NCBI GenBank assembly: GCA_035543055.1
Contig: DATKKJ010000160.1
Location: 1-37,710, forward strand
Direction: 5' to 3'
DNA from: Terriglobales bacterium
GTDB lineage: Bacteria; Acidobacteriota; Terriglobia; Terriglobales; Acidobacteriaceae
Length of the DNA stretch: 37,710 nt
Shown here: positions 7,404-21,072 of the stretch, in pieces
How positions within the stretch are numbered: position 1 is the stretch's first letter
Layout: every line of letters begins with the position of its first letter
Program-made: the position numbers and the translations under genes
The notes under the pieces: model-generated
The model's database searches: none
Told to the model about the DNA's origin: nothing
Seen by the model: only the letters and a program-made list of their open reading frames with translations

Positions 7404-7718
7404 ATGTTCAGACAAGTCAACTGGCTGGCCCTGACCGGACTTGTGATGCTGGCGGCGGGAGTGTTCCTGGTCTTCAGTCCATACAGCATGTTTCCGCTGT
7501 GGGCGATCTGGCTGGTGGGGCCGCTGCTCTGGTACCTGGGGGCAGCGCTGACCGTAGCCGGGATCGCAGCCCATTTCTTCGGCGCCCCGAACCCGAAGAA
7601 GGCGGCAGAGTCGTTCGCTGAAGCGAAGTCCACGCCGCACCTGGAGCGCATGGGCCTCGCCACCGCGCCCGCCAGAGTGGAAAGCGAAATCCCCGCGATG
7701 AGTGGGTTCACTCTGTGA
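7404..7718 (+). CDS. Small two-helix membrane protein, first gene of bc operon
   Basis: 104 residues. Two hydrophobic helices (about residues 8-27 and 35-58) are followed by a polar tail. AAAGGAG stands before the ATG. No known domain is recognised. It overlaps the Rieske start (GTGA), so it is translated with the quinol-oxidising complex and may be an accessory subunit or assembly factor. That role is inferred from position only. Confidence 0.7.
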   Translation: MFRQVNWLALTGLVMLAAGVFLVFSPYSMFPLWAIWLVGPLLWYLGAALTVAGIAAHFFGAPNPKKAAESFAEAKSTPHLERMGLATAPARVESEIPAMSGFTL

Positions 7719-8239
7719 ACAAGGACGACCGGGAACCCATGGCTACGAAGCCGTGTCCCATGGTGATGGCGGCGGCAAGAGAACCCGAGCAACAGAAAAC
7801 ACAGGACAAGGGGCGCAGGCGATTCGTCGGCCTGGTGCTGGGCGGCGGGGTGTTCGCGTCTTTGGTATCGTTCCTCTATCCGGTGCTGCGATATGTGCTG
7901 CCGCCGCCGGCGGCGGACCTGGGCACCGATTCGGTGCTGGCGGGGACCACCTCCGAGTTGAAAGTCAACTCGGCCAAGATCTTCAGGTTTGGCAGCCGGC
8001 CGGGGCTGCTGATCCGGACCGCCTCGGGCGAGTACAGGGCGATGTCGGCCACCTGCACGCACCTGAGCTGCACGGTGCAATACCGCGCCGACCTCCACGA
8101 GGTCTGGTGCGCCTGCCACAACGGTTTGTACGACCTGAGCGGGCGCAATATCTCGGGCCCGCCGCCGCGCCCCCTCGACCTCTACGACGTCCACGTCAAG
8201 GGCGAAGAAATCTACGTGAACCGCAAGCAAGGAGCCTGA
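7715..8239 (+). CDS. Rieske [2Fe-2S] iron-sulfur protein
   Basis: 174 residues from a GTG overlapping the previous stop; an ATG at 7739 is an alternative start. A GRRRFVG twin-arginine-like stretch leads into one membrane helix (about 37-60), as in Rieske proteins exported folded by Tat. Box I is CTHLSC (C114, H116, C119) and box II is CACHNGLYD (C132, C134, H135). The cluster ligands are C114, H116, C132 and H135, with C119-C134 as the disulfide. The second box has N-G where most have G-S, which can lower the redox potential and would suit menaquinol. It is the quinol-side electron acceptor of the complex encoded here. Confidence 0.93.
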   Translation: MNKDDREPMATKPCPMVMAAAREPEQQKTQDKGRRRFVGLVLGGGVFASLVSFLYPVLRYVLPPPAADLGTDSVLAGTTSELKVNSAKIFRFGSRPGLLIRTASGEYRAMSATCTHLSCTVQYRADLHEVWCACHNGLYDLSGRNISGPPPRPLDLYDVHVKGEEIYVNRKQGA

Positions 8240-8242
8240 TCG

Positions 8243-9331
8243 ATGCGCCACGCCGCCAGCTACGTCCGCGACTGGCTCGACCAGCGCTTCGGGTGGGAAG
8301 AGCTCATCGCCCCGCTGCGGCACAAGACGGTGCCGCTGCATCGCCTCTCCTACTGGTACTTCCTGGGCGGGATCACGCTGTTCCTGTTCGGGGTGCAGGT
8401 GACCACCGGCATCCTGCTGCTGCTCTACTACCGGCCCAGCGCCAACGAGGCCTACGAAAGCGTGAAGTACATCAGCACGCAGGTGCAGTTCGGTTGGTTG
8501 ATCCGCAGCATCCACTCCTGGTCGGCGAACCTGATGGTGTTCACCGCGTTCGCGCATATGTTCAGCGTGGTGTTCCTGCGGGCCTATCGCAAGCCCCGGG
8601 AGCTGACCTGGGTGTCGGGGGTGCTGCTGCTGTTCCTGGCCCTGGGCTTCGGCTTCAGCGGATATCTGCTGCCCTGGAACACGCTGGCCTTCTTCGCCAC
8701 CAAGGTGGGGACGGACGTGGCCGGGCAGGTGCCCGTGATCGGACACTGGATTCTGGTCTTCCTGCGGGGCGGCGAGGACGTGACCGGCGCCACCCTGACC
8801 CGCTTCTTCGGCTTCCACGTGGCGGTACTGCCGGGCATCACCACGGTGCTGCTGGGGCTGCATCTGGCCCTGGTGCAGAGATTCGGCATCAGCGTGCCCC
8901 CGCGAGTGGAGGAGGAGTGGTCGTACCGGCCGGAGCAGAAGAAGGAGATGAAGTTCTTCCCGAATTTCCTGCTGCGCGAAGTGATGGCCTGGTACGTGGG
9001 CCTGGGCGCGCTAGCGGCGCTGGCCGCGATCTATCCCTGGGAACTGGGAGCCAAGGCCGATCCCTTCGCGCCAGCCCCGGCGGGGATCAAGCCGGAGTGG
9101 TATTTCCTGTGGGCCTTCCAGACCCTCAAGCTGATCCCGTCGAAGATCCTCGCGTTGGACGGCGAACTGCTGGGGATCCTGGGCATGGGCGTGGCGGGCG
9201 CCATCTGGCTGGCGCTTCCCTTCCTCGAGCCCAAGCGGATGCCGCGCGGGCACCGCCTCCTGACCGGCCTGGGGGTCTTCGCCCTGACCTACATGGCGGC
9301 CATGACGATCTACGGGTGGGTGGCGAAATGA
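8243..9331 (+). CDS. Cytochrome b, b6-type with fused subunit IV
   Basis: 362 residues, the sum of cytochrome b6 and subunit IV in one chain. Haem ligands are H91 and H105 (13 between) and H192 and H207 (14 between). The 13/14 pattern marks the b6 type rather than mitochondrial-type cytochrome b (13/13). The quinol-site motif PEWY is at 284-287. The first helix ([12 protein letters not shown]) aligns with the b6 segment that holds the Cys for the extra haem ci, but Phe stands there and the whole protein has no Cys, so a covalent ci haem is absent. The gene lies 3 bases after the Rieske stop and overlaps the nine-haem gene by four bases (ATGA). Confidence 0.93.
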
Positions 9332-10563
9332 ACCGGACACTGGCAGTGATGGGATGCCTGCTGCTGATGATGGCGGCCGGCCGGGCAGCGGACAAGAACA
9401 CCTGTCTCGATTGCCACTCGCAGATGGAAGCGCCGCTCAAGGTGACCCCGGCCGAATACGCCAGCAATATCCACACGGAAAAAGGACTGAACTGCACCAG
9501 CTGCCACGGTGGGGATGCCAGCAGCGACTCCGACGCCATGAGTCGCGCCGCAGGGTTCCGAGGACACATCGAACGGCGGCAGGTCCCGGAACTCTGCGGC
9601 AGTTGCCACAGCGACGGGGCGAAGATGCGGCAATACAACCCCTCGCTGCGCACCGACCAGCTCAGCCAGTACAAGACCAGCGTGCACGGCAAGCGACTGG
9701 CGGCGGGCGACCAGAAGGTCGCGGTCTGCACCGATTGCCATACGGTGCACAATATCCGTCCGGCGTCGGACCCGCGTTCCAGCGTGCATCCGCTGAACGT
9801 GGCCAACACCTGCAAGCGCTGTCACTCCGACGCGCAGTACATGAAGGACTACAAGATCCCCCACGACCAGTTTGCCGGCTACACCGCCAGCGTTCACCAC
9901 AAGGCGATGACCGAGAACGGGGACCTGAGCGCTCCTACCTGCACCACGTGCCATGGGAACCATGGCGCCGCGCCTCCGGGACTGGCGACGGTGGAGAACG
10001 TGTGCTCGACCTGTCACGTCTTCCAGGCGCAGCTCTTCGACAAGAGCCCGCACAAGAGACCGTTCGCCGAAGCCGGCATGGGCGGATGCGTCACCTGCCA
10101 CAGCAATCACCGCATCACGCATCCCACGGATGCGATGGTGGGCTCGGGCGCCGGTTCGGTGTGCACCAACTGCCACTCCCAGGGCGACGCCGGCTACAAG
10201 ACGGCGGAGGTCATCGCCGCGCGCTTCGCGGAGCTGTCCGGCGCCGTCGAAGAGTCGCGGACTCTGCTGGAGCGGGCGGCGCACTCGGGCATGGAAGTCA
10301 GCGACGCGGAACTGGAGCTGGACGCGGCCAAGGATTCGCTGACCAAAGCGCGGGTGTCGCTGCACAGCTTCAGCGTGAACCGGGTGGACGAGGACATCGC
10401 CGCCGGGCTGAAGACCGCGCAGAAGACGCGCGAAGCCGGGCTGGCGGCCCTAAAGCAACGCGAGTATCGCCGCATGGGGCTGCTGGTGTCGCTGGCGACC
10501 ATCGTGGCCACCGTCGCCGCGCTGGCTTTTTATATCCGACAGATCGAGAAAGCGGACTCCTAG
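9328..10563 (+). CDS. Nine-haem c-type cytochrome, C-terminally anchored, bc-complex partner
   Basis: 411 residues. A signal peptide (about 1-20) is followed by nine CXXCH motifs starting at C26, C56, C90, C134, C162, C205, C226, C254 and C279. Several extra His residues (TVHNI, SNHRITH, GNHG) can serve as distal ligands. A long charged helical stretch (about 295-385, probable coiled coil) then leads to a single C-terminal membrane helix (387-405). Standing in an operon with Rieske and cytochrome b, it takes the place of cytochrome c1 or f and can pass electrons to periplasmic or outer-surface acceptors. Multihaem partners for bc complexes are known in Geobacter (Cbc clusters) and other anaerobes; the exact acceptor here is unknown. 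Confidence 0.9.
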
Positions 10564-10801: not shown

Positions 10802-12070
10802 TCACTTCTTGGACTTGGCGATGGCCAGGAGCAGGTCGGTATCGGCGCCGGCGCTGCGGAGTTGCCTCTCGGCATCGTCATTCAGAGCGAAGGAGACCCC
10901 GAACTGGCTGACCAGCGAGGCGACGCGCGGCGCCGGCACACCCTTCTGCAACGCTTCCAGGACCTCGGACAACGCCAGGGGCGGAGGACCCGGAGGCGGT
11001 TTGCGCTGGACCTCGATCTTGAAGGGCAGGCGCGAACCGTCGTGGGGAATGACGAAGCCCTGGATGGTATTGGGGCCGATGGCAGGAAGCGCAGCGTCCG
11101 CCTCGAACTCGACTTCACCGGCAGGGTTGGTGTGGAAGGTCGCAGGTTTGCCAGCAATCTCCACGCGATCAATGTTGCGGAAGCCGGCGGCGATGCCGCG
11201 AACGCGGACGGCCTCCTTGTCGGTCTCCGCGTTCGGCGCCGGGTCCAGCAGCCGCACATCGGGATGGTTCATAGTGAAGATCATTTGCGCCTGGGACTTG
11301 TCGGTGGCGCTGGCCATGACCACGATGGCGCTGGCGCCGGGGTTCACGGCGAAATCGGGGAGGGTGAACTCCACGGTAGTGGGCGCCAGGGCCTTCAGGT
11401 GAGCGGGGGCATTGTTGACCGTAACCGAGGCGATGCCACTGGCGTGGGAGGCCACGCCACGCAAGCTGACGCGCGCCGCGGCTACATCGAGGGCTTTGCC
11501 GGATTCAGCGCCCACCGGATCGAGCATGCTGATGACCGGGGGCGTGGCCGGGGGATGCAGGCGGGCTTCGCGGGCGCGCACGCGGTCCATGACGTCATCG
11601 AAGCGGGTGGCGGCCTCGACCAGTTCCTGATAAGCGAGGACATTGGCCCAGTCGAGCTTGGTCGTCCCGCCGTCGATCCAGCGCTTGCGCATGCGCATGA
11701 AATGATAGGTCGTCGTGCCCCCATGAAACTTCAACTCGGCGGCCTCGTTGGGCTGCCCCCAGATGGTCCACTGGTTGGCGTTGCTCAGATCGGAGCGGGC
11801 GTACTGGAAGCTGTGCCCCTTCTCCCCTTCCGGGCGCACGACCTCGTACCAGATCTTGTCCCGGGAGAAATACAGGTACCCGGCGCAACCGGAGCCGAAA
11901 TGAACGTGGGCCACCGGATAACGAAGCACCGACTCATCCCCTGACTTCACCAACTGGGCGCCGTCTTCATCGGCGGGAATGCCGGGCTGAGGGCGCTTGA
12001 AAAGCTGGGCGGATGCGCTGGCCGCCAGCAACAGGATGAAGAGCAGTAAGAAGGACCTGCGGACGTTCAC
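10802..12070 (-). CDS. Exported Ig-like-domain protein coupled to Ser/Thr kinase
   Basis: 422 residues from a GTG that overlaps the kinase stop. A clear signal peptide (RRSFLLLFILLLAASASA) is followed by a globular region rich in aromatic residues (about 40-150). Two Ig-like beta modules come next (about 180-275 and 280-345). A Pro-rich break leads to a C-terminal helical module of about 60 residues (LSEVLEALQKGVPAPRVASL, then a GV-x-F strand and a GAD-x-x-LL end). To my knowledge modules of this last type recur in Acidobacteriota beside Ser/Thr kinases. The function is unknown. Its overlap with the kinase gene suggests a ligand, substrate or partner of the kinase system. Confidence 0.75.
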   Translation of the reverse strand: MNVRRSFLLLFILLLAASASAQLFKRPQPGIPADEDGAQLVKSGDESVLRYPVAHVHFGSGCAGYLYFSRDKIWYEVVRPEGEKGHSFQYARSDLSNANQWTIWGQPNEAAELKFHGGTTTYHFMRMRKRWIDGGTTKLDWANVLAYQELVEAATRFDDVMDRVRAREARLHPPATPPVISMLDPVGAESGKALDVAAARVSLRGVASHASGIASVTVNNAPAHLKALAPTTVEFTLPDFAVNPGASAIVVMASATDKSQAQMIFTMNHPDVRLLDPAPNAETDKEAVRVRGIAAGFRNIDRVEIAGKPATFHTNPAGEVEFEADAALPAIGPNTIQGFVIPHDGSRLPFKIEVQRKPPPGPPPLALSEVLEALQKGVPAPRVASLVSQFGVSFALNDDAERQLRSAGADTDLLLAIAKSKK

Positions 12071-14055
12071 TTGCGCCTCCTCAAGAGGATCTCCTCTTCG
12101 GTGGCCTTGGCCTGGCGGGCGCGGCTGAGCCCAGCCTGGGCAGAAGCGTCATTGGGGTCGATGGCGAGAGCGGAATTGTAGACGTCGATGGCGGCGGCGT
12201 AGGCGCCCGAGTTGGTGAGGCGCTCCCCGTCGGCGAGGAGTTCCTGGAGACGCTGGCGCTGCTGGGCGGGAAGGCCGCGAGAAGCCGGCGGCTCCGGCCT
12301 ACGCTCGCGCACCGGCCTGGGGGCGGCGGCCTTGGGCTCGGGTTTCGGCTTCCCCGTTTTCGGCGGAGTGGTGGTCACAGCCGGCACGGCAGCCGCCACC
12401 GGCGGAAAATCGATCTGATTGCGAACTTCCTTGACCGCCGGCTGGCCGCTGGCGATGCGCGCCGCTTCTTCCGCCAGGCTCTGGGTCGCGACGTGACCGC
12501 TCAAGGTCACCACGCCGCCGTGAACAGCGACTTCCAAGGACTGCAATTCGGGGACGGCAGCGATAGCCGTCTTCACCGAGGCTGCGATCGCGTCGTCGGC
12601 GGGAACCGTGGCGCCCGCCGGGGACGGAGCAGCGGCAGTCGCGCCAGCGGCCTGAGTGCGCATGTACCAGTAACCTGCCCCGCTCATCAGCCCCGCCGTC
12701 AGGAGGACAGCCAGCGTCACCCATAACCAGGTGCGCCGGGGCGCCGGAGGAGGCGCAGCTCGGCGCGGCGCGGCCGCCCGGGGCGCGGATGCCGCGGGGG
12801 CCGAAGAGGTGGGCGCCGAATACTGCAATGGGAACGAAGGCGCTACCGGCGTCGGCTCGCGAGGAGGCGGAGCGGGCCGGGCAGCGACCAGCGGCGGTTG
12901 CGGCGCCCTGGGCGCAGGCGGCGCCGGGGGCGGAGGCGGTTCGCTCCGCGGCAACGGATCGTGCGTCTTGGCAGGGACCGGGGTCGGCACGCGCGACGGC
13001 GCCAGCCGCAGATTGGCGAGGACATCGGAACCGATGGCGGCGGTGGCGTCTTCGCGCCCGGTCGCGCTCTCGGCGCCGATCCTGGCGGTGGCCGCCCACT
13101 GCTCGGGCGCGTTCATGGCTTCCAGCATCTCGAGCGCGCTCTGGAAGCGGTCCTTGGGGTCCTTCTGCAAGGCCTTCATCACAATCATGGAGATGGGCTT
13201 GGGGATCCCGAGCGAGGGACAGAGCACGTGGGCCGGAGTGGGTATGGCCTGGATGTGCTTGATGAGCAGGGCCACGGGAGTGTCGGACTCGAACGGTAGG
13301 TGGCCGGTCAGCATCTCGTAGAGCACGACCCCGAGGGAGTAGAGGTCGGCGCGGCTGTCGACGTCGGAGCCGTGCTTGCCCATCGCCTGCTCCGGAGACA
13401 AGTACTGCGGGGTCCCGACCACCACACCGGTCTTGGTGGCGCTGAAGCCGGTGCCGGCGTCGAAGGCACCCTCGCGCACCTTGGCGATGCCGAAGTCGAG
13501 GACCTTGACCTGCTCAGGGTTATCGCCCTCGCGCACCAGCAGGATGTTGTCGGGCTTGATGTCGCGATGGGTGATGCCCAAGGCGTGGGCGGCGCCCAGG
13601 GCGGCGACGATCTGCTTGCCCAGATGCATCACCCGGTTCACCACCAGCGGCCCTTCCTTCTCGATGACCTCGCGCAGGTCGCGACCCTGCACATACTCCA
13701 TGACGATGAAGGGGCGGCCGTCGTCGGTGGTGTCCAGGTCGTCCACGCGGACGGCATTGGGGTGCTGGAGCTTGCGGGTGACGATGGCCTCGTTGCGGAA
13801 GCGCTTCAGGAAGATTTCGTCGTCGATGAAACGGCTGCTGACGATCTTGATGGCGCGGATCTCGTTGAAGGCGAGGTGCCTGGCCTTGTACACCGAGGCC
13901 ATACCGCCGGACCCGATCTTCTCCAGAATCTCGTACTTGCCGCGGACCTGCATGCCCTGGACGAGTTCCGAGGTGACCCGGAGGACGGTCTTGTCCCGGG
14001 GGCAGACCGTGAAATCGTTCGGATAGGTCGCATGGCACTGGTCGCAATAACGCAC
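12067..14055 (-). CDS. Transmembrane Ser/Thr protein kinase with zinc ribbon, BON and TPR
   Basis: 662 residues from a GTG. An N-terminal four-Cys ribbon (CDQC near 4, CPRD near 18) precedes a Hanks-type kinase. The kinase has a glycine loop (GSGGMASVYKA), VAIK-type Lys in AIKIV, catalytic HRDIKPDN, DFG, and an APE-like segment (LSPEQAM). A long Pro/Ala linker leads to one membrane helix (about 440-462). Beyond it lie a BON domain (about 485-555) and a C-terminal TPR-like helix pair (about 605-650). The kinase is cytoplasmic, while BON and TPR face outward, where BON may contact the envelope. The adjacent Ig-like exported protein gene overlaps it, so the two probably act together. Confidence 0.93.
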   Translation of the reverse strand: MRYCDQCHATYPNDFTVCPRDKTVLRVTSELVQGMQVRGKYEILEKIGSGGMASVYKARHLAFNEIRAIKIVSSRFIDDEIFLKRFRNEAIVTRKLQHPNAVRVDDLDTTDDGRPFIVMEYVQGRDLREVIEKEGPLVVNRVMHLGKQIVAALGAAHALGITHRDIKPDNILLVREGDNPEQVKVLDFGIAKVREGAFDAGTGFSATKTGVVVGTPQYLSPEQAMGKHGSDVDSRADLYSLGVVLYEMLTGHLPFESDTPVALLIKHIQAIPTPAHVLCPSLGIPKPISMIVMKALQKDPKDRFQSALEMLEAMNAPEQWAATARIGAESATGREDATAAIGSDVLANLRLAPSRVPTPVPAKTHDPLPRSEPPPPPAPPAPRAPQPPLVAARPAPPPREPTPVAPSFPLQYSAPTSSAPAASAPRAAAPRRAAPPPAPRRTWLWVTLAVLLTAGLMSGAGYWYMRTQAAGATAAAPSPAGATVPADDAIAASVKTAIAAVPELQSLEVAVHGGVVTLSGHVATQSLAEEAARIASGQPAVKEVRNQIDFPPVAAAVPAVTTTPPKTGKPKPEPKAAAPRPVRERRPEPPASRGLPAQQRQRLQELLADGERLTNSGAYAAAIDVYNSALAIDPNDASAQAGLSRARQAKATEEEILLRRRK

Positions 14056-14201: not shown

Positions 14202-14759
14202 CTAGAAAATACCGAAACGGCGACGGGCGGGGATCACGGACAGCGCATGCTCGTGGCAGGCGGGGCAGAAATCGGCGCCCTTGATGTCGATCCACTCGAC
14301 GGAGTGGGAGGCGGCCATGACACAGCCGTAGTCCTGGCAGTGGGTGAGACCGAGGGTGTGGCCGAGCTCGTGAACCGATTCTTTCAGCAACCGGGCGGCG
14401 AACAGCTCCGGGTCGTTGGGCAGTCCGTAGAATCCCTGGGTCAGACGCCGCCAGGAGACCACGCAGCAGCGGCCGGTGAGCTGGGCCTCGCCGAAGACGA
14501 AGGTCAGGATGGGCATGTAGAGGTCCACCGAAGTGACGCCCAGCAGGCGCCAGCATCCGTTGGGCAGCAGGCCGGAGAGCGCGCTCAGGATCTGGGTGGA
14601 GTGGTACTGCTGGCGCTGCGCGTGCAGGAAGGGCTTGGGGTCGAGCGAATCCGGCAAGAGTTGGCAATCGACGCGCAGAATCTCCTGCAGGCCACGCCGC
14701 AGGCGCTCGAGCACGGCGCCGTCGGGAGGACCGACCGGCAGCAGGTGGATGACGCTCAT
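14202..14759 (-). CDS. amzA: Archaemetzincin-family zinc protease
   Basis: 185 residues. It has the extended metzincin zinc site HELGHTLGLTHC (three His, catalytic Glu), followed by CVM (the Met-turn region). A final C-x-x-C (FCPACH) supplies the second zinc site that defines archaemetzincins. Family members are soluble cytoplasmic metalloproteases with few known substrates; they are sporadic in bacteria. The gene overlaps the stop of the sigma-54 regulator gene by four bases (ATGA), so it is the last gene of the hybA-nrfD-kinase-regulator operon. That coupling suggests a regulated proteolysis role in the same response. Full length; confident on family. Confidence 0.92.
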   Translation of the reverse strand: MSVIHLLPVGPPDGAVLERLRRGLQEILRVDCQLLPDSLDPKPFLHAQRQQYHSTQILSALSGLLPNGCWRLLGVTSVDLYMPILTFVFGEAQLTGRCCVVSWRRLTQGFYGLPNDPELFAARLLKESVHELGHTLGLTHCQDYGCVMAASHSVEWIDIKGADFCPACHEHALSVIPARRRFGIF

Positions 14760-16126
14760 CGCGCGTTCGTGGTGGCGGTGGCGGCCGGGGTGCGTTTCCA
14801 GCCGTACTTCTTGAGCTTGTTGTAAAGCGTGACCCGGTCGATATCGAGCACTTCAGCGGCGCGGGTCTGGTTGCCTCCGCACTCCTCCAGCACGCGCAGG
14901 ATGTGCAGGCGCTCGATGTCTTCCAGGGTCTTGCCGGTCTCGAACTCCTGCGGCTTGAGCTTGAGGGTGAAGTCCTGCTCGCGCAGTTGCGGCTCGGCGG
15001 CCACTACCATGGCGCGCTCGACGGCGTTCTCGAGCTCGCGCACATTGCCCGGCCAGTCGTAGTCCTGCAGGAGGCTCATGGCGGCGGGAGCCACGTTGGC
15101 GATGCGCTTGTTCATCGAGGCGGAGAACTTGCGGACGAAGTGGTCCACCAGCAGGGGGATGTCTTCCTTGCGGGCCCGCAGCGGCGGAATCTCGATGCGG
15201 AAGACGTTCAGGCGGTAGAACAGGTCGGGACGGAACGTCCCTTCCTCGATGAGCTTCTCCAGGTCCTTGTTGGTGGCGGCGACGCAGCGAAAATCGACCT
15301 TGATCGGCTGGTTGCCGCCGACGCGCACGATCTCGCGCTCCTGCAGCACGCGCAGCAGGTCGGTCTGGGTCTTGAGGGAGATGTCGCCGATCTCGTCGAG
15401 GAAAACGGTGCCGCCCTCGGCGATCTCGAACTTGCCTTTCTTGCGGTACTGGGCCCCGGTGAAAGCGCCTTTCTCGTGGCCGAAGAGCTCGCTTTCCAGC
15501 AGGGTTTCGGTCAGGGCGCCGCAGTGGATGACGACCAGGGGATTGAAGCGGCGCGGGCTCATGCCGTGGATAGCTCGGGCCACGAGTTCCTTGCCGGTAC
15601 CGCTCTCGCCGGTGACCAGCACGGTGGCGTCGGTCGAGCCGACGGTCTCGATGGCCTCGAAGACCTTCTTCATGGCGGCGGACTGGCCGATGAGATCGGG
15701 CGGGCGCAGCACCTCCCCGACGGTCTCCTTCAGGCGCGCGGCTTCCTTCTCGGCGTGGCGGTGGGAGAGCGCGTTCTTGACCACGTGGGCGATGTCATCG
15801 GGATCGAAAGGCTTGGTGACGTAATCGTAGGCGCCGTTCTTGAGCGCCTGCACCGCGGTCTCCACCGAGGCATAGCCGGTCATGATGATGACGATGAGGT
15901 CAGGATCGATCTCGTGCAGGCGGCGCTGCAATTCGATGCCGTCAATGCCGGGCATCTTGATGTCGATCAGGGCGAGGTCCCAGCGGCGCTCGGTGAGGCG
16001 GGCAAGGGCCTCGTGAGCGCTCTCCGCGGTGCCCACCTCGTAGCCCTCGTCGCGGAACCAGTGTCCCAGCGACTCGTGCACGATAGCTTCGTCGTCGACG
16101 ATCAGGATGGTGGATTTCCCTGGCAT
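14756..16126 (-). CDS. Sigma-54-dependent response regulator (NtrC family), redox operon
   Basis: 456 residues. The receiver has D11-D12 and phospho-acceptor D55 (LIDIKMPG), then TKPFD. The AAA+ domain has GESGTGKE, a canonical GAFTGA loop and TVFLDEIGD. The C-terminal Fis-type helix-turn-helix has RAAEVLDIDRVTLYNKLKKYGWKR. AAAGGAG precedes the ATG, 6 bases after the kinase stop. As an activator encoded inside an operon with a -24/-12 promoter, it most likely drives its own operon (19842-19857) and the GcvH-like gene (20824-20839). The dyad at 19927-19968 is a natural candidate binding site. Confidence 0.94.
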   Translation of the reverse strand: MPGKSTILIVDDEAIVHESLGHWFRDEGYEVGTAESAHEALARLTERRWDLALIDIKMPGIDGIELQRRLHEIDPDLIVIIMTGYASVETAVQALKNGAYDYVTKPFDPDDIAHVVKNALSHRHAEKEAARLKETVGEVLRPPDLIGQSAAMKKVFEAIETVGSTDATVLVTGESGTGKELVARAIHGMSPRRFNPLVVIHCGALTETLLESELFGHEKGAFTGAQYRKKGKFEIAEGGTVFLDEIGDISLKTQTDLLRVLQEREIVRVGGNQPIKVDFRCVAATNKDLEKLIEEGTFRPDLFYRLNVFRIEIPPLRARKEDIPLLVDHFVRKFSASMNKRIANVAPAAMSLLQDYDWPGNVRELENAVERAMVVAAEPQLREQDFTLKLKPQEFETGKTLEDIERLHILRVLEECGGNQTRAAEVLDIDRVTLYNKLKKYGWKRTPAATATTNAR

Positions 16127-17848: not shown

Positions 17849-19033
17849 TCAGTCTCCCGGAACCACTTCCTCGGCTAGAGCCACCGAGCGCACTGCCGCC
17901 GCCGGCAGCGTCGCCGGCGCTGGCTGCTCCTCGGGGAAGATGGGCAAGTACTTGGCGGCGGCGCCGAACAGGGCGAATCCCGCCGCGATGATGGCCGCGG
18001 TCACCGCCATTTCCGTCCACTTGGGGACGTAATGCATGCCGGCCGATCCTTCGATGCCGGTGATGCTCACGTTCAGCCGGTTGGTGATGAAACCCAGCAG
18101 AGCCAGCACCGCCGACAGGTAAAGCCCGCCCGCGCTGGCGCGCACGCGCTTGGAGAGCAGCAGCGCGATGGGAACGGCGGTCAGCAGGGCCTCGACCAGA
18201 AAGAAGGGGCGCTCATAACTGGGGACCAGCAACAGCTTGAGGACGCCCCGGTGGTACAGGTCCTGAGTGCGGATAACACCGTAGATCATCAGCACCACCA
18301 CCAGGATGCGGCCCAGTTCCGACAGCAACGGCATCTCCAATTGACGGTGAAAATACTTGGAGCTCAGGCTGCTTTCGAAGATGGTCATGGCCAGCCCGAC
18401 GCCGATCGCCGAGAGGAAGAAGAAGACCGGAAGCAGCGGGCTGTACCAGAAGGGGTGCAGCTTGTTGGGCATGATCAGGTAGAGCGTGCCCAGCGAGGAC
18501 TGGTGCAGGGTGGAGAGGATCACGCCCACGCACACCAGAGGGATGCTGACGGCGTGCATGATGCGCAGCGCCTTCGACATGCGGAACTTCTCGAACACGA
18601 TGGGCGCGAATTCCAGCGCCAGCACCGTGGTGTAGAGCATGACGCAGTAGGCCACCTCGAACATCACGGAATGCGGATTGCGCATGACGAGCGGGTGCCA
18701 GATGCGGTAGTAGCGTCCGAGGTCATACATCAAGGCGACACAGACCAGCACGTAACCTAAGAATGCGGTAAGAACAGTGGGCCGGATGATGGGCTTGAAG
18801 CGTTCGAGGTTGAAGACATGGACGGCGGCCATGAGGGTGAAGCCGCCGGCGGCCAGCATGACGCCGCAGAGGACGTCGAAGCCGATCCAAAGGCCCCAGG
18901 GAAACTCGTCGCTGAGGTTGGTGGAGGCGCCCAGGCCGTAGGCGAAACGCAGCACGGTGGCATAGGCGCCCATGGCCATGATGAACAGGAAAACAACCTT
19001 CCAGAAGGTGAACTTCATCAGTCTCTGCTTCAT
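17849..19033 (-). CDS. NrfD/HybB-type integral membrane quinone-site subunit
   Basis: 394 residues with about ten hydrophobic helices, the length and pattern of HybB rather than the shorter NrfD. The opening (FWKVVFLFIMAMGAY, then EFPWGLWIGFDVLCGV) and the loop HQSSLGTLYLIMPNKLHPFW are characteristic of HybB/NrfD proteins. These subunits bind (mena)quinone in the membrane and exchange electrons with a partner iron-sulfur protein. The partner here is the HybA-like gene 3 bases upstream. No molybdenum or [NiFe] catalytic subunit is next to it, so the terminal donor or acceptor is missing from the cluster. Confidence 0.93.
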   Translation of the reverse strand: MKQRLMKFTFWKVVFLFIMAMGAYATVLRFAYGLGASTNLSDEFPWGLWIGFDVLCGVMLAAGGFTLMAAVHVFNLERFKPIIRPTVLTAFLGYVLVCVALMYDLGRYYRIWHPLVMRNPHSVMFEVAYCVMLYTTVLALEFAPIVFEKFRMSKALRIMHAVSIPLVCVGVILSTLHQSSLGTLYLIMPNKLHPFWYSPLLPVFFFLSAIGVGLAMTIFESSLSSKYFHRQLEMPLLSELGRILVVVLMIYGVIRTQDLYHRGVLKLLLVPSYERPFFLVEALLTAVPIALLLSKRVRASAGGLYLSAVLALLGFITNRLNVSITGIEGSAGMHYVPKWTEMAVTAAIIAAGFALFGAAAKYLPIFPEEQPAPATLPAAAVRSVALAEEVVPGD

Positions 19034-19036
19034 GGC

Positions 19037-19801
19037 CTAGCGCACCTCCTTGTGGTTCTTGGCCGCGGCTTCGCGAGCGGCGACCTCTTCGCGGCGGTGG
19101 GTGATCCACCAGATGCCTCCCAGCAGAACGCTGCCCAGTCCCACCAGGTCGGGAATGCGGGAGAGCACGCGGAAGGTGAACATGGGCAACGGCTCGTGGA
19201 CCAGGTCGGTGCGGAAGCCAAAGCCCTCGAAGGCGACCGAGGAGAGCATGAGCACGCTGGTACCGCCGACCTCGGTCTCCCCATACACGTGATTGACGTA
19301 ATTGCCCGGGTTCTGCCGGATGCGCTCGTGGGCTTCCGCCAACAGCTCGTCGCGCGTGCCGAACTTGGTGGCCCCGGTGGGACAGGCCTCGGTGCAGGCG
19401 GTCACCTTGCCCGCCGCCAGCCGGTCGGAGCACATGTCGCACTTCTTCACCGCCGGCAGGGCCTTGCTCCACTCGTACTTGGGGACACCGAAGGGGCAGG
19501 CCGCCATGCAATAGCGACAGCCCATGCAGCGGGCCTCTTCGTAGATCACCGGGCCGTCGGCGGTCTTGCGCAGGGCGGCGACCGGGCAGACCGAAGCGCA
19601 GCTGGGATCGTTGCAGTTCATGCACAGGCGGCGCATGAACTTGTCGTTCCTGGCGAGGACGACGGTGAACTTGTGCGCCGACTGCTTCTCTTCGGCGGCG
19701 ATGGTCTCGTTGTAAGGGAGCTTATTGCGTTCGGCGCAGGCCTGCTCGCAGGCCTTGCAGCCGATGCACAGGGTGGCGTCGTACAGGATCGCCTTGCTCA
19801 T
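19037..19801 (-). CDS. HybA-like four-cluster ferredoxin with C-terminal membrane anchor
   Basis: 254 residues. Cys groups for four [4Fe-4S] clusters are visible: CIGCKACEQAC, CMNCNDPSCASVCP, CMGCRYCMAACPFG and CDMCSDRLAAG with CTEACP. A C-terminal helix (about 215-235) anchors it, as in HybA. There is no Tat signal at the N-terminus (it begins MSKAILYDATLCIGC), so the clusters may lie on the cytoplasmic side or be carried across by a partner; this differs from classical HybA. It heads the operon with nrfD, the haem kinase, the sigma-54 regulator and archaemetzincin. A GGAGG lies 11 bases before the ATG, a slightly long gap. Confidence 0.92.
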   Translation of the reverse strand: MSKAILYDATLCIGCKACEQACAERNKLPYNETIAAEEKQSAHKFTVVLARNDKFMRRLCMNCNDPSCASVCPVAALRKTADGPVIYEEARCMGCRYCMAACPFGVPKYEWSKALPAVKKCDMCSDRLAAGKVTACTEACPTGATKFGTRDELLAEAHERIRQNPGNYVNHVYGETEVGGTSVLMLSSVAFEGFGFRTDLVHEPLPMFTFRVLSRIPDLVGLGSVLLGGIWWITHRREEVAAREAAAKNHKEVR

Positions 19802-19841
19802 GATGGTTCACGCCTCCGCACAGAACACCCACCCAGGTGGA

Positions 19842-19857
19842 GGCAAGCGGCCTGCCG
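19842..19857 (-). promoter_or_regulatory. Sigma-54 (-24/-12) promoter of the hybA operon
   Basis: Minus strand: CGGCAGG, four bases, TTGCC. GG and GC are at the exact required spacing, and both core boxes fit TGGCACG-N4-TTGCW with three mismatches. The predicted start is near 19831, about 30 bases before the hybA ATG. The operon itself encodes a sigma-54 activator. Confidence 0.65.
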
Positions 19858-19926
19858 GAGTAGAGGCTCTGTAGCAGTAAATGAAGTGGTGCAAGTGATG
19901 GGTTGGTAAGGACTTCGGCCGGCGGT

Positions 19927-20100: not shown

Positions 20101-20766
20101 TCAGCTCAGGAAGAATTCGCGGGTGACCTTGCCCCAATCCAGGTCGGGGAGCTGGCCACCCAGATCGTCGATGGCCATGCCGCCATCGGCCATGGCGCCC
20201 TCCGCCATGGGCAGGTGCTTGCGCAGCCGCGCCGCGGCTTCTTCCATCCACCAGCGGGCGAGGTCGCCGGAGAGCAAGTTGCGGAAGTTGAGCTTGGCAT
20301 CGGGGGCTTCGACCGCCACCAGCCAGCCTTCGCCGTAGGGATCGCGGCGGGCGCGCTCGGGATCGGCGGCCGCTCCATCGTTGATCTCGGTCACGACACC
20401 TTCCACCGGCGACACCAGGTCGGTGGCGATCCCGTTGCGATGCAGGGTGACGATCTTCTGTCCCTGGCGGACCCATTGTCCGCGCTGTGGCAGCGTGATC
20501 TTCTCCACTTTGCCCACCAGCCGGGCGGCGAAGTCGTCGAGGCCGGTCCGGACCAGCTTCGGGCCTTCACTCTGTGCCCAGGTGTGGCCGGGGTGGTAGC
20601 GCAGGCCCTCGGGGAGCAGGAATCCAGAGACGATATTGGGTTGCGGCCGGCGTCCGGCCGCGGTCGCCAGCATGGGCTGCACCGCCGGGCGCAGCATGCG
20701 CTTGCTGTAGAAGTAGTCGACGATGAGGAAGGCGATGAAGGTCGCGAGTACGAGAATGACGGTCAT
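20101..20766 (-). CDS. Membrane-anchored GcvH-like protein without the lipoyl lysine
   Basis: 221 residues. A single N-terminal helix (about 2-19) precedes a GcvH-type domain (about 57-165). Family landmarks are HTWAQSEG, then VRQGQKIVTL, DLVSPVEGVV and DPYGEGWLV. In GcvH the lipoylated Lys sits four residues before the Asp of this D-L-x-(S/A)-P; here that position is Gly (NGIATDLVSP) and no Lys lies between residues 105 and 157, so lipoylation is not expected. A C-terminal extension of about 55 residues is not part of GcvH. AGGAGG precedes the ATG at ideal spacing. With no glycine-cleavage genes nearby and its own sigma-54 promoter, it probably serves the HybA/NrfD module. Confidence 0.85.
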   Translation of the reverse strand: MTVILVLATFIAFLIVDYFYSKRMLRPAVQPMLATAAGRRPQPNIVSGFLLPEGLRYHPGHTWAQSEGPKLVRTGLDDFAARLVGKVEKITLPQRGQWVRQGQKIVTLHRNGIATDLVSPVEGVVTEINDGAAADPERARRDPYGEGWLVAVEAPDAKLNFRNLLSGDLARWWMEEAAARLRKHLPMAEGAMADGGMAIDDLGGQLPDLDWGKVTREFFLS

Positions 20767-21072
20767 GACGAGCCTCCTGGCGTGGGTCCTTTCGTTTCTG
20801 CGCCACGTTCCACCTTTACCTAAGGCAAGTCGGTGGCCGCTCTTGCCAAGCGGGAATAAGCCGCATGGGAGTCGCCGTAACCTGTTAGGAGTTAAGGAGT
20901 TGTGAGGGATTCTCGGGGAGCCGGCTCAGCGGAGCTGTTGTGTTCCCAATCGCCTCGTCGCTGATTTTTGCAGCAGCGTTTTGCAACAGAACCCCGTTAA
21001 TCACTTCATCGCCTCAGCAAAATCAGTAGGTTACGCCGGGACGATGTGTAGTTGATTTTCGCAGCGCACCTC
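20767..21072. other. Divergent spacer, GcvH-like and TPR genes
   Basis: 306 bases. It holds the -24/-12 promoter at 20824-20839, a 10-base palindrome GAGCCGGCTC at 20918-20927 (about 110 bases from the predicted start) and a pair TTGCA/TGCAA at 20958-20976. An inverted pair CTGATTTTTGC/GCAAAATCAG lies at about 20951-21026. No gene seen. Confidence 0.5.
20824..20839 (-). promoter_or_regulatory. Sigma-54 (-24/-12) promoter of the GcvH-like gene
   Basis: Minus strand: CGGCCAC, four bases, TTGCC. It has the same GG/GC spacing and the same CGGC and TTGCC ends as the hybA promoter at 19842-19857. The predicted start is near 20814, about 47 bases before the ATG. Confidence 0.6.

Follow-up and report, generated by a model that had tools for sequence, protein, structure and literature searches.

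A membrane-anchored GcvH-like protein without the lipoyl lysine in a conserved gene module with a predicted NrfD-type quinone oxidoreductase of Acidobacteriota

The protein described here, hereafter Q, shares with the glycine cleavage H protein (GcvH, PF01597) its fold and the core motifs GHTW, SPVEG and DPYGEGW. It differs from GcvH in lacking the lipoyl lysine, in carrying an N-terminal membrane helix and a tail of about 55 residues with DGG, W and FFL motifs, and in having no adjoining gcvT or gcvP. Lysine-free barrel-sandwich (lipoyl-like) domains do occur in the redox membrane complexes that contain RnfC and NqrA, but these domains are not of the GcvH family and the complexes are different ones. 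LbpA of the sHdr sulfur-oxidation pathway resembles Q in being a GcvH-like protein recruited into a redox system outside glycine cleavage (PMC6067878). LbpA, however, has a strictly conserved lipoylated lysine and mostly two conserved cysteines (PMC6067878), whereas the Q analyzed here has no lysine at that site, no cysteine at all and no hdr genes alongside; lysine, cysteines and gene context thus rule out an LbpA/sHdr identity. The genes next to Q recall HmcBC, HybAB and QrcCD, in which a four-cluster Fe-S subunit is combined with a 10-helix NrfD-like quinone subunit (PMC6303296, PMC8076601). In contrast to these systems, the Fe-S subunit found here has no Tat signal, a GcvH-like protein is added, and the operon is devoid of a hydrogenase, Mo-type or multiheme partner.

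The window, i.e., the whole stretch of DNA that was analyzed, comprises 37,710 nucleotides of contig DATKKJ010000160.1 from a Terriglobales bacterium. The features of Q therein are as follows:

20101-20766, minus strand: Q, membrane-anchored GcvH-like protein of 221 amino acids (coordinates include the stop codon), identified by Pfam, AlphaFold2, Foldseek and 97 homologues
20698-20763, minus strand: N-terminal transmembrane helix of Q, residues 2-23, a helix in the AlphaFold2 model
20269-20604, minus strand: GCV_H domain of Q (Pfam PF01597)
20431-20433, minus strand: codon of Gly112, the lipoyl-lysine position, placed by alignment with the genome's own GcvH and by the family column
20104-20268, minus strand: C-terminal helical tail, absent from GcvH, with near-invariant ADGG (20179-20190), W211 and FFL

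A sequence-only reading of this open reading frame had proposed a GcvH fold with glycine in place of the lipoyl lysine, preceded by a helix and followed by a new tail, and each of these elements was recovered. GCV_H was the sole Pfam match of Q (E 4.8e-18; 65.7 bits for a cut-off of 22.2), and all 53 members of the Q family alignment matched it as well. The AlphaFold2 model, computed with the family alignment as input, reached a pLDDT of 88.5 and consists of the helix at residues 2-23, a low-confidence linker (26-37), a GcvH beta-sandwich with pLDDT of about 95-98 and the added helical tail. When this model was compared with the PDB by Foldseek, the best 22 matches were all H-proteins or GcvH-like proteins, with TM-scores over the target mostly of 0.82-0.91 (0.85-0.90 for the top matches). 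Furthermore, in homologues with a called helix the flank following the helix was the more positive one in 75 of 84 cases, and the sequences suggest that the C-terminal domain of Q faces the cytoplasm.

We then focused on the lipoyl-lysine position. Aligned with the GcvH of the same genome (TVESVKAVSELYSPVSG), the lysine column falls on Gly112 of Q, within HRNGIATDLVSPVEG. In the model, residues 104-110 and 113-118 form two strands, and N111-G112 is the hairpin turn between them. An alignment of many homologues, the check that had been suggested for this position, gave glycine in 86, aspartate in six, asparagine in two, histidine in two and lysine in only one of 97 Q homologues, and a [DN]-G tight turn occupies the site in 74 of 93 distinct family sequences. 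Homologues keeping the lysine in the same gene context, named beforehand as the observation that would speak against the proposal, were accordingly confined to that one sequence (L017/L139) and a receiver fusion (L180), and in both the lysine of the turn lies outside any ESVKA-type lipoylation motif. By motif, the lipoyl lysine is kept in 15 of 16 canonical GcvH proteins of relatives; the sixteenth reads AIESVKAVSD, so that by inspection the lysine is present there too. The window genome encodes its canonical GcvH and GcvT on another contig (L117). Moreover, the Q family has invariants of its own, e.g., G48, H58, W63, R73 and D194-G195, the last of these in the tail, nearly always followed by G196 and absent from GcvH. 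Family-wide loss of the lysine, a separate canonical GcvH and its own invariants therefore argue that Q is a distinct and maintained protein; as read from the alignment, lysine loss is a conserved trait of the family and not the mark of a degenerate pseudogene. These comparisons lend good support to the view that Q is not lipoylated at the canonical site.

The same reading had placed Q beside quinone-linked redox genes, and profile matches confirmed HybA and NrfD/HybB as its downstream neighbours. They are followed on the same strand by three further genes:

19037-19801, minus strand: HybA/HmcB-like protein with four 4Fe-4S motifs and no Tat signal; two in-frame codons precede its ATG
17849-19033, minus strand: HybB/HmcC-like membrane subunit of the NrfD family with 10 predicted transmembrane helices
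16133-17845, minus strand: membrane histidine kinase whose sensor region has CxxCH and CxxxxCH motifs of the heme type
14756-16126, minus strand: NtrC-type sigma-54 response regulator, by profile matches
14202-14759, minus strand: M54 (archaemetzincin) peptidase, by profile matches

With a multi-cluster Fe-S protein next to an NrfD-like one, the pair qualifies as an NrfD-family quinone module, its activity being predicted. The best NCBIfam matches of the two window proteins were HmcB (268 of 420 bits) and HmcC (325 of 550 bits), both below equivalog level, and as the window genes stay under the Hmc, Hyb and Qrc cut-offs, membership in Hmc or Qrc proper was rejected. A related locus, L129, does reach the HmcB equivalog (428.5 of 420 bits).

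The order Q, HybA, HybB, kinase, regulator, M54 on one strand recurs as co-linear operons in homologous loci. Over 61 genomes (the window's own and its relatives), strong matches to Q and to HybB (the latter with E below 1e-100) and matches to M54 coincide fully: 14 genomes have all three and the remaining 47 have none of them, a count uncorrected for kinship; likewise, Fisher's test for Q and HybB over the 61 genomes gave 4e-14 with shared ancestry uncorrected. Copy numbers of Q and HybB were equal in 12 of the 14 genomes with Q. In some genomes, Q lies on a different contig from HybA/HybB, which counts against Q being a subunit of their complex. In addition, a second paralogous set, Q2-HybA2-HybB2, was found with Q directly before HybA-HybB in all 13 fetched loci, and a Glu/Leu-dehydrogenase-type gene follows it in nine of them. 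Judged by gene order and co-occurrence, Q is part of a conserved module with HybA, HybB, the heme-type kinase, the sigma-54 regulator and M54. A search of the phylum of a Lentisphaerae relative found the Q family in 2 of 145 genomes; within the sampled genomes, the family is mainly acidobacterial. As a separate observation, the bacterial M54 peptidase was found only in the Q-module genomes (14 of 61). The window also holds, in a row, genes for a Rieske protein, cytochrome b and a cytochrome c of the multiheme type (7715-10563, plus strand), a bc1-like complex in which the multiheme protein is an unusual partner, as well as a Ser/Thr kinase with BON domain and TPR (12067-14055, minus strand); Ser/Thr kinase genes of this BON/TPR type recur near Q genes in L035, L037, L041 and L114.

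Taken together, the proposal that a cofactor-less lipoyl-carrier fold has been reused in a new role found support in a conserved family that exists besides an ordinary GcvH, while the role itself can only be proposed. We consider it about an even bet that an NrfD-type quinone oxidoreductase has in Q an accessory or effector subunit that faces the cytoplasm and carries no cofactor. Q would be anchored by its one N-terminal helix, with a non-lipoylated domain in the cytoplasm, and would serve, presumably by physical binding, the Hmc/Qrc-like HybA/HybB menaquinone oxidoreductase. The hairpin that holds the lipoyl lysine in GcvH would now be a plain tight turn, leaving Q therefore without a covalent cofactor, and Q could dock or gate through protein-protein contact.

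Regarding the control of Q, promoter-like sites of the sigma-54 (-24/-12) type were found upstream of both Q and HybA:

20823-20841, minus strand: site upstream of Q, core CGGCCACCGACTTGC at 20825-20839, at -73 from the ATG
19841-19859, minus strand: site upstream of HybA, TCCGGCAGGCCGCTTGCCT

The HybA-upstream site is the top-scoring sigma-54-like site on either strand of the window, and the Q-upstream site ranks fourth. Among 96 regions of 150 bp upstream of Q genes, 54 contain YGGC-N7-TTGC, 42 of them with a start at -80 to -61; the background rate of this pattern is 0.05 per 380 bp. We infer that the adjacent sigma-54 regulator controls Q. Across the family, the kinase retains CxxCH in 33 of 39 and CxxxxCH in 38 of 39 sequences, and this heme-binding histidine kinase may sense the redox state, with control of Q being transcriptional here, through the regulator.

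In other families, control by the kinase could be direct, through a fused receiver domain. Fusions of a transmembrane segment, a receiver and a GcvH domain occur in at least 13 genomes (L130:8437-9531, minus strand; L169-L178, L180 and L181), with Response_reg (2.9e-29) and GCV_H (2.3e-20) matched by Pfam on a single chain, and the acidic pair, the phospho-acceptor Asp, the Thr and the Lys of the receiver are kept in 13 of 13. In most loci (L130, L169-L177, L180, L181), the fusion gene directly follows HybA-HybB-kinase, HybA-HybB being out of view on the short contig of L176. L178 has a different gene order, with two different receiver-GcvH genes in tandem, one of them without a membrane helix. 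As the phospho-acceptor residues are retained, evolution has in these fusions coupled the lysine-free GcvH domain directly to the kinase. The chain of the window Q carries no receiver domain. These fusions, including the helix-free one, the sigma-54 control, and the kinase or regulator genes that adjoin Q in most loci would also fit a rather unlikely alternative, namely that Q is mainly a two-component signalling protein, a GcvH-fold output or adaptor to or from kinase and regulator, and no HybAB subunit. Against this speak the second-set Q, which directly precedes HybA-HybB wherever it was fetched, the finding that two or three Qs may share a genome with just one M54, and the Q genes that flank Qrc operons too. 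In L128, GcvH-like genes flank an operon whose QrcD scores 588 bits, over the equivalog cut-off of 570, and L134 and L138 are similar; distant GcvH-like members are also present in two or three copies around HybA-HybB in L125, L129, L101, L102 and L097.

In the three Qrc loci, all of Acidobacteriota, a multiheme cytochrome, a QrcB-like protein, QrcC and QrcD lie between the two GcvH-like genes, one of which has a repeated Cys-rich N-terminal region without a Pfam match. Cys-rich N-terminal extensions on GcvH-like proteins were seen in L137 and L128; that of L137 (5819-7006, minus strand) is a long N-terminal half with CPFL...YC and CIWM...C..C repeats and no Pfam match, and from its sequence it looks like a metal-binding region.

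Returning to Q as an oxidoreductase subunit, a bolder version seems possible but doubtful: the lysine-free GcvH would be a new two-component output, a membrane effector controlled by the heme kinase that directly switches an NrfD-type oxidoreductase leading from ferredoxin-linked 2-oxoacid oxidation to respiration, in an M54-marked undescribed module.

The link to 2-oxoacids comes from gene context. Operons for two types of 2-oxoacid:ferredoxin oxidoreductase (Kor, and Vor accompanied by a CoA-transferase-like gene) adjoin Q, or the complete set from Q to M54, in many loci, and the module lies on one strand with Kor/Vor operons in L063, L077, L163 and L177. Uncorrected for kinship, KorA is found in 13 of 14 genomes with Q and 4 of 47 without it, and VorB in 13 and 5, respectively, of the same two groups. 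This linkage and co-occurrence could be explained by Q being a docking scaffold that brings these oxidoreductases to the membrane, recalling the docking of lipoyl domains to dehydrogenases. We regard such a function as improbable, as one genome (G026) has Q and the module with neither KorA nor VorB, and as Kor/Vor genes do not neighbour the Q of the second set or the Qs linked to Qrc. For Q as a subunit of the quinone oxidoreductase, the Kor/Vor linkage, together with the Glu/Leu-dehydrogenase-type gene by the second set, suggests a chain from amino-acid deamination through ferredoxin-reducing 2-oxoacid oxidation to quinone, and the oxidoreductase is probably fed by ferredoxin-linked 2-oxoacid oxidation. 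The donor would be ferredoxin reduced with amino-acid-derived 2-oxoacids; electrons would pass from the Fe-S subunit to HybB and on to the quinone pool, and Q may couple or regulate their flow.

The main weakness of this mechanism is the sidedness of HybA. Its missing Tat signal suggests a cytoplasmic location; its positive C-terminal tail and the ordinary orientation and charge pattern of HybB suggest a periplasmic one. Moreover, related modules in L129, L097 and L178 have Tat-type Fe-S subunits, and ferredoxin therefore cannot be the universal donor. The module of G026, a genome devoid of KorA and VorB, likewise speaks against this mechanism.

It is very unlikely that lipoate or some other covalent group is attached to Q through a lysine elsewhere in the chain. 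The lysines of Q are residues 22, 70, 86, 89, 104, 158, 183 and 213, none within seven residues of Gly112. K104 and K158 are kept in 87 of 97 and 74 of 96 homologues, respectively, but both lie away from the hairpin tip, which is a [DN]-G turn and, to our knowledge, the only lipoylation site of GcvH and E2 proteins. No other lysine of Q emerged as a lipoylated one, the second observation named beforehand as speaking against the proposal. The reading of Q as a GcvH, be it ordinary or in decay, can practically be dismissed: homology to GcvH is offset by an intact, conserved Q with its own invariants, by gcvT and an intact gcvH elsewhere in the genome, and by sub-equivalog scores for GcvH (TIGR00527, 67.7 of 115.85 bits; NF002270, 76.3 of 117 bits). 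Scores for TIGR03077 not_gcvH (43.1 of 144 bits) and NF045810 GcvH_rel_desulf (36.7 of 150 bits) were also below the curated cut-offs.

In the open-access literature, we found no description of a module combining a GcvH-like protein and NrfD, or archaemetzincin with two-component and sigma-54 genes, nor a matching one of non-lipoylated H-like proteins, receiver-GcvH outputs or ferredoxin:menaquinone links, and the Q module is apparently without a published description. Control by sigma-54 and a heme kinase, the receiver-GcvH fusions, M54 and the link to ferredoxin-dependent 2-oxoacid oxidation are additions to the sequence-only reading. Current family models would label members of the module as glycine cleavage H protein, hydrogenase-2 subunits and archaemetzincin, whereas, if our reading is true, Q, HybA, HybB, the heme kinase, the sigma-54 regulator and M54 would form a six-gene module that can be tracked. 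In that case, respiratory complexes of a soil phylum of very high abundance would reuse a classic cofactor-carrier fold, now without cofactor, for regulation or docking. As to how the ferredoxin reduced by 2-oxoacid oxidoreductases delivers electrons to quinone in Acidobacteria, the module would offer a candidate answer.
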